This document shows, piece by piece, positions 47,983-51,529 of a stretch of DNA of 64,000 nucleotides (the stretch's first letter is position 1; the number at the start of each line of letters is the position of its first letter). The DNA is from Colwellia sp. D2M02 (GTDB lineage: Bacteria; Pseudomonadota; Gammaproteobacteria; Enterobacterales; Alteromonadaceae), in the NCBI RefSeq assembly GCF_018860755.1, contig NZ_JAHKPW010000078.1, positions 1-64,000 on the forward strand, in the 5' to 3' direction. Below the pieces are notes generated by a model that saw nothing but the letters and a program-made list of their open reading frames with translations, did not search any database and was not told where the DNA came from. The translations under genes and the position numbers were made by a program.

Positions 47983-48947
47983 TTACCAATTAACCTTGTA
48001 TATTTTTCATTAAAATTTAACGCTAAACGTAAATTAAACTTGAACTCGGTAACATCCCACGGGGTGAACCGACTCAATGAAAACAAATTATTATTTTTAG
48101 GGGAGATACAGCCCCAGTCAGTACTAAATGCGGCGGTAAAGCCACACTCTTTAGCTATTCGTTGATGGTTATCATTAAAATCGACCTGATATTTGCCATT
48201 AGGGTAAGCAAGAAAATTGACCGGTTTATTAGTTATTTTCTCTAAGTACTGTTTTGAAAGCATCATCTCAGATTGTACTGTTTGGTCTTGTTCACAAGTT
48301 AATATTGGGTGGTTAACGGTATGCGCACCAATTTCCATTCCTGCTTCAGAAAGAGCAAATATTTGTTGCTCACTCAAAAATTGATGTTTGAGTTGAGGTT
48401 TACCTGTTTTATTTAATAACTGCTCAATTAAATGATTACGCTCATCATTGCTTTGATATTTAATTATTTTAGCTATTTTCTTAACGCACTCTATTCGTTG
48501 ACTATAGGTAGCAACAGGGTAATTTACCGCTAAATAAACTAATGTTTCATCACTAGCAGGTAACTGCATAATTGCTGATGAAACCAGCTCATCCCACAAA
48601 TAGCCTTGCTGTATTCCTGAGGTACTAATAAAGAATGTCGCAACTAGCTCATGTTTTTGTAACAAAGGAAATATTTTAGTGTAACTATCTGAGTAACCAT
48701 CATCTATGCTAATCGCTATTGATCGTTTAGGTAACTTACCTTGCGCCTGTAGTGCTAAGCCCTCAGTTAAGCTAATAGGGTTAAAATAACGCTTAAGCCA
48801 AACAAGCTGCTGCTCAAAGAGTTTTTCGTCCATACATAGCTGATTATACGACTCACCAACACGGTGGTATGTCAGTACTGTTAAGCTATTTCGGCTAACT
48901 AACGCTGAAATAATACTAACAAACAACTTAATCGATATTTTATGCAT
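47979..48947 (-). CDS. Polysaccharide deacetylase (NodB-like)
   Basis: 322 residues. The NodB motif SIDDGYSDSYTKIFPLL holds the catalytic Asp and a metal-binding Asp, and GAHTVNHPIL supplies the two histidines. FLAYPNGKY follows further on. It would remove N- or O-acetyl groups from the polymer or its lipid-linked unit. A short hydrophobic N-terminus (IKLFVSIISALVS) could anchor it in the membrane. It overlaps the ligase gene by 8 bp. A second deacetylase of the XrtA type is encoded at 59685-60551. Confidence 0.88.
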   Translation of the reverse strand: MHKISIKLFVSIISALVSRNSLTVLTYHRVGESYNQLCMDEKLFEQQLVWLKRYFNPISLTEGLALQAQGKLPKRSIAISIDDGYSDSYTKIFPLLQKHELVATFFISTSGIQQGYLWDELVSSAIMQLPASDETLVYLAVNYPVATYSQRIECVKKIAKIIKYQSNDERNHLIEQLLNKTGKPQLKHQFLSEQQIFALSEAGMEIGAHTVNHPILTCEQDQTVQSEMMLSKQYLEKITNKPVNFLAYPNGKYQVDFNDNHQRIAKECGFTAAFSTDWGCISPKNNNLFSLSRFTPWDVTEFKFNLRLALNFNEKYTRLIGK

Positions 48948-50250
48948 ATCGATGTCCTTCCCTTTTAATAGCGACTTTCGTTTCTTTTCTTTTAATTAAC
49001 TCGCATAAGATATGTGCTAACGCAAAAATAGCAAACGAGAGATCAAAGTAAGGTAAACTCAATGCCGCACCACCCGCACAATAAGCAATTAAAGAAACCT
49101 TTAACATACGTGCTAAGCCAATAAGCCATTCATCGTCTGTATTACGCGTGACCCAGCTTAATTTTCTATAAGTGATGAGGAGAATACTTAAAAACATAAT
49201 TAACCCCACAAAACCTAAATCACCCAGTACCTGAAAATAAATACTATGTGCCGCTTTAGCTTTAGGAAAGTGAATACCTGTGGTATCAACAATAAAGTTG
49301 AGTTTATAAAAATCAGGCTCGTATAACATCCATAATCCTTGGTTTTGCCCTGCTTTAAAACCAGCGCCAAAAATAGGATTATCTAGTGCCATCAGTGTTG
49401 CTTGCTTCCATGCCATGGCTCGACCTAAAAACGACGTATCTTGGTCCATTGTTTCTATGGTATTCATGCGCCCAGTCCACTCATCAGAAACAAAAGCGCT
49501 ACTGACACCAACAGCTACAACAAGAAAAATCGAAACCAGTAGTTTACGTTTACTTTGTAGAAAAAAGTAACCGCCAACCACAATGAGTGCAAGTGTTCCG
49601 CCACGAGAATAAGAGCCGAGAATAGCAACAATATTAAAAGCCACAGCCCCCATTAATGCCAACCTAAGCCATTTAGATTTGGTTTGGCTTAATAAAAACA
49701 TAATCAATGGAATGGTCATATTTAAAGCTAATGCTAATTCGTTTCGATCCTCTAACCGACTTCCTGGAATACCAGCAACTGTATGTCCACCAGCAGTAAC
49801 AATATACTTAAGCCCTTCAGCAGCGCCAAAATAAGCTGCCGATAAACAAATAGCCCAAAGAAAAACATTGATGTGATGTTTAGTTTTAATGACAAAAATA
49901 CAAAGGAAGTAAAAAATAATGATTTTGAGGAAAATATTCCATTCAAACCAAACAATGCTAGGGTTAGATAGCGTTAAAGCACTTGAAATTGTCGACCAAA
50001 TAAAAAAGATTAAAATTAAAACCGTTAGCCCTGAAGCTTCAGTTTTAACTTTATTTCTTTGAAAGAAATAAGAGAGAATTGTCGCAAGCGCAATAAGCAT
50101 GTTATAGCGTAACGACGAGGCAAACCCCCACACCCAACCGTTAGGGAAAAACATCGCACTCCAGATCCATAACGATACGCCAATGTAGGGACGCTTGAAG
50201 ATGAAATATAATAAAGCAGGGAAAACTAAAACTAAAAATATATCGCGCAA
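48940..50250 (-). CDS. O-antigen ligase/polymerase-like protein, exosortase A-associated
   Basis: 436 residues with about 10-12 membrane helices. The large periplasmic loop contains HFPKAKAAHSIYFQVLGDLGF with the conserved His found in WaaL/Wzy enzymes, and NIVAILGSYSRGGTLAL is a family signature. The sequence fits the putative O-glycosylation ligase of XrtA loci. It should polymerise or transfer the flipped units at the periplasmic face. The start is a TTG at 50250 placed directly after the stop of a small ORF, with GAGGA eight bases upstream. Confidence 0.88.
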   Translation of the reverse strand: MRDIFLVLVFPALLYFIFKRPYIGVSLWIWSAMFFPNGWVWGFASSLRYNMLIALATILSYFFQRNKVKTEASGLTVLILIFFIWSTISSALTLSNPSIVWFEWNIFLKIIIFYFLCIFVIKTKHHINVFLWAICLSAAYFGAAEGLKYIVTAGGHTVAGIPGSRLEDRNELALALNMTIPLIMFLLSQTKSKWLRLALMGAVAFNIVAILGSYSRGGTLALIVVGGYFFLQSKRKLLVSIFLVVAVGVSSAFVSDEWTGRMNTIETMDQDTSFLGRAMAWKQATLMALDNPIFGAGFKAGQNQGLWMLYEPDFYKLNFIVDTTGIHFPKAKAAHSIYFQVLGDLGFVGLIMFLSILLITYRKLSWVTRNTDDEWLIGLARMLKVSLIAYCAGGAALSLPYFDLSFAIFALAHILCELIKRKETKVAIKREGHRYA

Positions 50251-50337
50251 CTACTTGTCCTCGTTATCATTTTTAACAGCCCAGTAGCATAAAAATGCGA
50301 TAGATATTAAGTTAACTAAAAACAATAAACTATCCAT
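50251..50337 (-). CDS. 28-residue single-pass membrane peptide
   Basis: ATG at 50335-50337 to TAG at 50251-50253. The peptide starts MDSLLFLVNLISIAFLCYW, one hydrophobic helix, and ends in charged AVKNDNEDK. The start overlaps the upstream glycosyltransferase stop by 8 bp (ATGGATAG), and the ligase begins at the very next base after its stop, with the ligase's ribosome-binding site inside this frame. Such seamless packing argues that it is translated. Its role is unknown; it may associate with the ligase. Confidence 0.7.
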   Translation of the reverse strand: MDSLLFLVNLISIAFLCYWAVKNDNEDK

Positions 50338-51529
50338 GACGACTGATGTCCTCTTGATGAGTTTTAATAACTTGCTTAAGCAATAGGTATTGTTTTTCAC
50401 TAACCTGTTGCCAACCAAAATGCTCTGCCTGCTCTCTTACCTTAGCCGATGAAATATTCTTAGCGAGTACTGAATGAATACTCGCTGCTATAGCACCGCT
50501 ATCTCGCTGCATAATTAACTCGCCAGCGTTAGGATGAGTGATTATTTCAGCACTACCGCCAACATTAGTCGCCACAACAGGAGTGCCTGATGCTAACGCT
50601 TCTAATAAAACGTTTGGCATACCTTCTCTACTTGAGGCTAACACTAATAAATCAGCACTAGCATAATAGCCAGGTAATTCGGCTTGCTGAATGTTACCAG
50701 TAAAAAATACTCTGTCTTGTAAGCCTAACGCTGTCACTAATTGCGTTAACTCGGCTCTCATTTGACCTTCACCAATCACAATAAGCTTAACCTTAGGTAA
50801 TTGAGTTAGCGCCTCAATGATTAAGTGATGCCCTTTCAACTCAATTAAATTACCGACACTTAGGATTAATTTTTCATCTTTTTCAAATGAAAAAGGTAAC
50901 GTTGGATGAGTTGCATCAGGGGTAAAAAAATCTAAATCGACGCCATTACGCAATACGATAGGTTGTTTTGCTTGAGGTGCGAGCTTGACCATTTCATTCG
51001 CTAAAGCTTGAGAGACCGCGGCACTTGCATTAACTGTCATTAATGCCTGTTTAATGCGTTTACCTGCAATAACATTATCTGGAATAACATTAATATCGCT
51101 ACCACGGGCTGTTACCATAACCGGAATATTCAGCTTTTTACCTAACCAAGCAGCGACGACACCATCTGGGTAAAAGTAATGACTATCTATCATATCAACT
51201 TGGTAACCGCTTAACGTTAAAGACTTCAGTGCCTTTAGGCAGCTACGATATAAAAAATACGGTGTTATATTCATTCCTACTTTGGGAATGACAAGGTATT
51301 TAGGGTGAAAAACGTCAATTCCACTCCGTTTTTCCTGTGTTACGACTTGGCTATATTTTTTATATTCGGCAGCAGGCAACCAGCTCGGAAAATACGGCAC
51401 AGGCGCAATCACTTTAACCTGAGCATCAGGATAACGCTTAACTAATTCTCTCACTCTATTTTCAATAAAAACACCATGACGGTGCTGAATATTATTAGGG
51501 TAAAGTGTAGTTAATACGACAATATTCAT
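50330..51529 (-). CDS. Glycosyltransferase family 4 protein
   Basis: 399 residues. VLTTLYPNNIQHRHGVFIENR opens the acceptor domain and GHHLIIEALTQLPKVKLIVIG and SREGMPNVLLEALASGTPVV form the donor domain. The architecture is like TuaC-type transferases and matches transferases of XrtA loci. Its start overlaps the preceding glycosyltransferase stop by one base, and its stop overlaps the small membrane ORF by 8 bp. Confidence 0.9.
   Translation of the reverse strand: MNIVVLTTLYPNNIQHRHGVFIENRVRELVKRYPDAQVKVIAPVPYFPSWLPAAEYKKYSQVVTQEKRSGIDVFHPKYLVIPKVGMNITPYFLYRSCLKALKSLTLSGYQVDMIDSHYFYPDGVVAAWLGKKLNIPVMVTARGSDINVIPDNVIAGKRIKQALMTVNASAAVSQALANEMVKLAPQAKQPIVLRNGVDLDFFTPDATHPTLPFSFEKDEKLILSVGNLIELKGHHLIIEALTQLPKVKLIVIGEGQMRAELTQLVTALGLQDRVFFTGNIQQAELPGYYASADLLVLASSREGMPNVLLEALASGTPVVATNVGGSAEIITHPNAGELIMQRDSGAIAASIHSVLAKNISSAKVREQAEHFGWQQVSEKQYLLLKQVIKTHQEDISRHG

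Follow-up and report, generated by a model that had tools for sequence, protein, structure and literature searches.

The stretch of DNA analysed here (the window, 64,000 nucleotides) contains a frame of 28 codons between the genes of a glycosyltransferase and of a putative O-glycosylation ligase, all three on the minus strand. The small gene (50251..50337) extends from an ATG at 50337-50335 to a TAG stop at 50253-50251 and encodes a single-helix protein of 28 aa, MDSLLFLVNLISIAFLCYWAVKNDNEDK, which was assessed by conservation, selection and profile search. With its first 8 bp it overlaps the upstream ORF (50330..51529, minus strand), the product of which is a GT4-type glycosyltransferase whose best NCBIfam match, TuaC, was below its cut-off; this gene is a neighbour of the small gene and not its linked partner. 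A probable ribosome-binding site of the small gene, AAGAGGA (50349..50355, minus strand), is located inside the glycosyltransferase gene, 11 nt ahead of the ATG. The ligase gene (48940..50250, minus strand) starts with a TTG at 50250, the base directly after the TAG of the small gene, and its probable ribosome-binding site, GAGGA (50258..50262, minus strand), is found inside the small gene, 7 nt ahead of the TTG. The 28-codon ATG frame, its 8 bp overlap with the upstream stop and the start of the next gene at the base after its own stop, with the ribosome-binding site inside the small frame, had all been described in the initial annotation and were confirmed; the strand, which had not been given, is the minus strand. 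A TTG start of the ligase gene is shared by the window, L002 and L004, and an ATG is present at the same place in most relatives (65/77). Further genes of an XrtA system were identified upstream by family scan and provide the context of the locus: an XrtA-system glycosyltransferase (TIGR04063, 51529..52743), an XrtA-system amidotransferase (TIGR03108, 52760..54706) and exosortase A (TIGR03109, 55807..57303), all encoded on the minus strand.

The gene product downstream of the small gene (DUF5935 + Wzy_C) belongs to TIGR03097, with 479.9 bits at a cut-off of 188.1. The profile covers residues 1-405 of the 408 residues of the ligase, so that no ligase helix seems to be missing for the peptide to replace. 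A confident AlphaFold2 model of the ligase was compared with solved structures by Foldseek, and the best match was WaaL (7tpg; E 6.7e-6, TM 0.44/0.50, 16% identity). The next matches were chains of FtsW and RodA (8p1u, 8bh1, 8tj3, 6pl6), which were weaker (E 1.1e-3 and more); all matches except 7tpg had E values above 0.001. WaaL catalysis involves conserved periplasmic Arg and His residues. Putative counterparts in the window ligase are R216, R261, R277 and H335, which are conserved to more than 93% among ligases with and without the small gene.

TIGR03097-type ligases were gathered from searches at relative, order, class and family level and the surrounding regions were fetched. Altogether, 196 loci were scanned (L001-L200 minus L031-L034), from which 24 were set aside, namely 23 with a ligase-profile score below 360 (other Wzy-type proteins or distant relatives) and the duplicate L035. 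Merging of 9 repeated ligases among the remaining 172 resulted in 163 distinct ligases, some of which score below the TIGR03097 cut-off (e.g. L168 and L169). Matches that were partial, broken or low-scoring were left out of the survey, as was at least one congener (G564). A single-helix small gene was found ahead of 83 of the 163 ligases, 77 of them called by rule and six by eye (L137, L145, L153, L154, L155 and L162), and is absent in the other 80. The calls made by eye preceded tree building. Ligases without the small gene are referred to as clade A, those with it as clade B. On a FastTree phylogeny of all 163 ligases, presence and absence of the small gene are explained by one change, compared to a mean of 54.6 changes after shuffling (0 of 500 shuffles as low). 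A single change was also obtained with IQ-TREE for 74 rows hand-picked for spread (SH-aLRT 80). Support of the dividing branch is moderate in these unrooted trees (63 and 80, respectively). The present set comprises 80 loci of family f1 and one locus each in f20, f21 and f134, while the absent set takes in 15 further loci of f1. Since one change on the tree is a single event and does not stand for many independent gains, the weight of this distribution rests on retention: no loss of the small gene was observed on the present side, where the subtree spans 45.3 substitutions per site.

Within the present set, the features of the small gene fit a protein-coding gene. Start codons, Shine-Dalgarno (SD) motifs, lengths and charges, as well as the Mantel statistics given below, refer to the 77 rule-called rows. 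The small gene starts with ATG in 70, GTG in six and TTG in one of these, and an SD-like motif is located ahead of it in 73 of 77 loci and ahead of the ligase gene in 70 of 77. The encoded proteins are 26 to 49 aa long (median 29). In 58 of 77 loci the stop of the small gene ends at 0 to +4 relative to the ligase start, i.e. both genes touch or overlap. Substitutions were counted in 22 disjoint pairs and were distributed 98/48/203 over codon positions 1/2/3 (pS 0.455, pN 0.106, pN/pS 0.233, Fisher p 4.5e-50), with pN lower than pS in 21 of 22 pairs and a nearly identical pair as the exception. For the ligase gene, pN/pS was 0.172 in the same pairs. Between the window small gene and those of five close relatives (L002-L006), pN ranged from 0.03 to 0.15 and pS from 0.57 to 0.87. 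The initial annotation had proposed that the frame is translated, and had named the same frame in related loci and synonymous-biased substitution as signs to look for, and relatives lacking the frame or carrying stops in it as evidence to the contrary. Both signs were found, the frame being retained at 83 of 83 loci of this ligase clade, and the purifying selection makes its translation probable. On this sequence evidence, the 28-codon frame belongs to a conserved family of genes that is linked to a single clade of ligases.

A profile was built on 50 of the 82 referenced peptides and searched against 118 family genomes, where 26 matches were obtained at E<1e-3, all of them directly ahead of a ligase. 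Many of these genomes supplied sequences to the profile, and the informative part of the result is the lack of matches elsewhere at E<1e-3. The profile is blunt, as at least seven present-side genomes of the 118 (G126, G705, G718, G727, G730, G734 and G746) were not matched at this threshold; since divergent copies escape it, stray divergent copies elsewhere could escape it too. In 22 absent-side genomes no match was found at E<1e-3 (best 0.0035). The class-level search (229 genomes) did return matches away from a ligase, the best one in G376 at E 7.2e-4. A genuine stray copy was considered for G376 and rejected, the match being taken as chance; the ORFs within its 3 kb are unlike a ligase by eye.

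An acidic residue is present within positions 2-8 in 76 of the 77 small proteins, and the N-terminal parts of all 77 together contain 81 acidic and six basic residues. Past the helix, the charges begin with a K or R in 56 of 77 peptides. According to the positive-inside rule, which is well established, this pattern suggests that the small protein is oriented with the N-terminus out and the C-terminus in. In a first AlphaFold2 prediction of peptide and ligase as a read-through chain, the peptide helix was poorly placed (pLDDT about 53); in a second read-through chain with more peptide rows, the helix reached a pLDDT of 82-85, a value that describes the helix itself and not its docking. The ligase part was good in both. 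No natural fusion of the small gene to the ligase gene was noticed among the ORFs inspected. A divergent group of ligases (L161-L169), characterized by an N-terminus of the MITDLF/MISDL type, is accompanied by a distinct type of peptide that contains a V[DE][SG] motif and resembles the main type mainly in layout.

Several ligase residues differ between the two sides of the tree. At position 148, K is found in 82 of the 83 ligases with the small gene, and F, Y or W in each of the 80 without it; at position 145, E predominates in the former (66 of 83) and G in the latter (79 of 80). Position 48 is R on the small-gene side vs P on the other side. In addition, about 14 alignment columns just before the conserved His335, which correspond to residues 313-321 and 324-328 of the window ligase, are for the most part occupied in present-side ligases and not in those of the other side. 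K148, E145 and the extra columns are candidate contact sites for the small protein, picked out from the alignment, and nothing more.

The genes upstream of the small gene are variable. A PaaK-like CoA ligase was found in 47 of the 83 loci, a glycosyltransferase in 12 and other genes in 18, while none was found in six. CoA ligase and glycosyltransferase have been exchanged at least seven times among the 59 present rows with either type, and the small gene stayed in place. Both upstream types also precede ligases without the small gene (CoA ligase in 10 and glycosyltransferase in 30 cases). The distances between small proteins track those between the adjacent ligases (Mantel r 0.855, 0 of 2000 permutations as high). 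For 46 loci with a CoA ligase, the partial correlation of small protein and ligase given the CoA ligase was 0.78, while that of small protein and CoA ligase given the ligase was 0.09 (CoA-ligase distances were calculated from the last 190 residues of the adjacent enzyme). An assembly or regulatory partnership with the ligase had been put forward in the initial annotation; neighbour exchanges and distances point to linkage with the ligase and not with the glycosyltransferase, in a narrower form than proposed, as it would apply to one clade and not to XrtA ligases generally. The PaaK-like CoA ligase whose gene frequently precedes the small gene at XrtA loci (47/83) ends with SGK(Y/F)RYVISKV, and the two of these enzymes that were scanned (L008:1-1365 and L051:2843-4255) had no NCBIfam family above cut-off.

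Taken together, the frame is considered a real gene encoding a small single-pass inner-membrane protein, whose role would be that of an accessory subunit dedicated to the WaaL-fold ligase encoded next to it (probability about 0.65). We infer the accessory role from conservation, selection, fixed place and co-divergence, and physical contact of both proteins is putative. Three features expected of a small accessory subunit of a membrane enzyme were found, i.e. a single helix, conservation and a genetic tie to one enzyme. Co-divergence alone does not prove contact, since neighbours that are inherited together co-diverge without touching. According to the accessory-subunit reading, the small protein would be synthesized immediately ahead of the ligase through coupled translation, and would insert with its N-terminus out and its C-terminus in. 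Its helix might then pack against the newly made ligase and thereby stabilise it, aid its assembly or tune the transfer step. The process affected would be the assembly of XrtA-linked polysaccharide or glycoprotein.

Among the other explanations, a real small membrane protein with a different partner at the locus (exosortase, flippase or chain-length regulator), placed beside the ligase for co-expression, is possible if unlikely. Exosortase A was detected above cut-off in 34 of 34 small-gene genomes tested, as expected for a partner, and also in 22 of 22 absent-side genomes tested; being present on both sides, it is no predictor of the small gene, whose occurrence goes with the ligase clade rather than with the presence of an exosortase as such. 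A precedent for a chain-length regulator as partner is provided by RmpD, which is small, has one helix and a cytoplasmic C-terminus, and is reported to bind Wzc (PMC10294653). Presence of the small gene splits exactly with the ligase clade and its product diverges along with the ligase, which speaks against such a partner. A function in cis, where the ribosome-binding site of the ligase is opened or coupled by translation of the small gene while the resulting peptide is idle, would be in line with the position of this site inside the small gene and with the touching or overlapping stop and start codons. It appears quite improbable in view of the constraint at the amino-acid level and of the conserved acidic N-terminus and helix. 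Moreover, clade-A ligases adjoin the upstream gene directly and lack the small gene (e.g. L014-L017); at L016, the CoA ligase gene overlaps the ligase gene with no small gene between them.

A small hydrophobic toxin or stress peptide located here by accident would agree with the gene in size and hydrophobicity only, and is very improbable given the linkage to one ligase clade and the lack of profile matches away from a ligase in the family genomes. A chance ORF is hardly credible and was rejected at the sequence level. Short hydrophobic ORFs are not rare as such: a loose rule (hydrophobic ORF of 20-60 aa with its end close to the start of a gene), applied to the window ORFs of at least 180 aa, was satisfied at five of 39, and a hydrophobic ORF precedes two of the 80 absent-side ligases as well (L110 and L175), in both cases without the N-terminal pattern. 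What raises a small frame above chance is conservation at the same place in relatives together with purifying selection, both of which were found here (83 loci; pN/pS 0.23), while a single sequence proves little. Elsewhere in the window, at about 36406 on the minus strand, a hydrophobic 28-codon frame, MVSYNNKSMFLVVCIFCTVLFYSFTLLS, is located ahead of another ORF and may be a chance case.

As an accessory subunit of the ligase, the small protein would work most like DltX and RmpD, two small proteins needed by envelope polymer machines; this is an analogy, and membership in neither family was shown. DltX has a single helix. It is a very small membrane protein encoded in the dlt operon and reported to be essential for a membrane-bound envelope transferase system (PMC5541007). 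The protein described here is likewise very small and encoded with a membrane-bound envelope transferase, whereas DltX serves Gram-positive D-alanylation and not a WaaL-type ligase. The DltX family (PF12459) matched two of 50 peptides with a negligible best E value of 0.023, short of a match over the gathering score, and did not match the window peptide. RmpD, described as acting on polysaccharide assembly through binding of Wzc in Klebsiella capsule assembly (PMC10294653), has one N-terminal helix and a charged C-terminal part. It differs in its length of 49-58 aa, in the positive charge of the C-terminal part and in its partner, and the likeness is drawn from its published description and not from sequence.

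In cytochrome bd, CydS acts as an accessory subunit. CydS-like small subunits (PF22282) resemble the small protein in that a charged tail is attached to a very short hydrophobic helix. Eight of 50 peptides matched this family weakly (best E 8.4e-4), the window peptide not being among them, and when 20 peptides were scanned singly, five matched with at most 18.5 bits at a cut-off of 25, i.e. below the level of membership. The neighbours of the small gene that were scanned in the window are genes of polysaccharide and exosortase systems, unlike the cytochrome bd context of CydS. BcsF is a small membrane component of the cellulose (exopolysaccharide) machine; it resembles the small protein in being such a component of an exopolysaccharide machine, although of a different one, a likeness taken from description and not from sequence. 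The titles of the FtsW and RodA structure entries name RodA-PBP2 and FtsWIQLB complexes, which indicates that a fold of this type can take partners, while the title of 7tpg names WaaL only. The partners of FtsW and RodA are larger proteins with periplasmic domains, whereas the whole partner would be one helix in the present case. As a rule, ligases of the WaaL and Wzy types are regarded as enzymes of a single chain. It is a doubtful extension of the accessory-subunit reading that one XrtA-associated clade of WaaL-fold ligases forms an obligate two-component enzyme, in which a helix of 26-49 aa would be part of the working ligase, with the conserved acidic N-terminus at the periplasmic face and with K148, E145 and the insert before His335 setting acceptor or chain-length specificity.

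The window peptide had no significant match in Pfam (best E 0.12) or in NCBIfam (best E 0.086), the latter scan covering this one peptide of the family, and the 50-row profile had none among PDB chains (best E 0.24). In the titles and abstract starts that made up the literature search, which included few subscription papers and no preprints, no small partner was named for exosortase-associated or O-antigen ligases. The main text of the founding PEP-CTERM paper contains the terms "small protein" and "ligase" 0 times each (PMC1569441). A conserved gene family can thus be without a model in Pfam, NCBIfam and PDB, in this case because its members are under 50 codons, and a gene of 28 codons is easily overlooked for its size. 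The role assigned to the TIGR03097 ligase in XrtA/PEP-CTERM systems is so far putative, and a small gene linked to a single clade of these ligases gives a direct handle on it.
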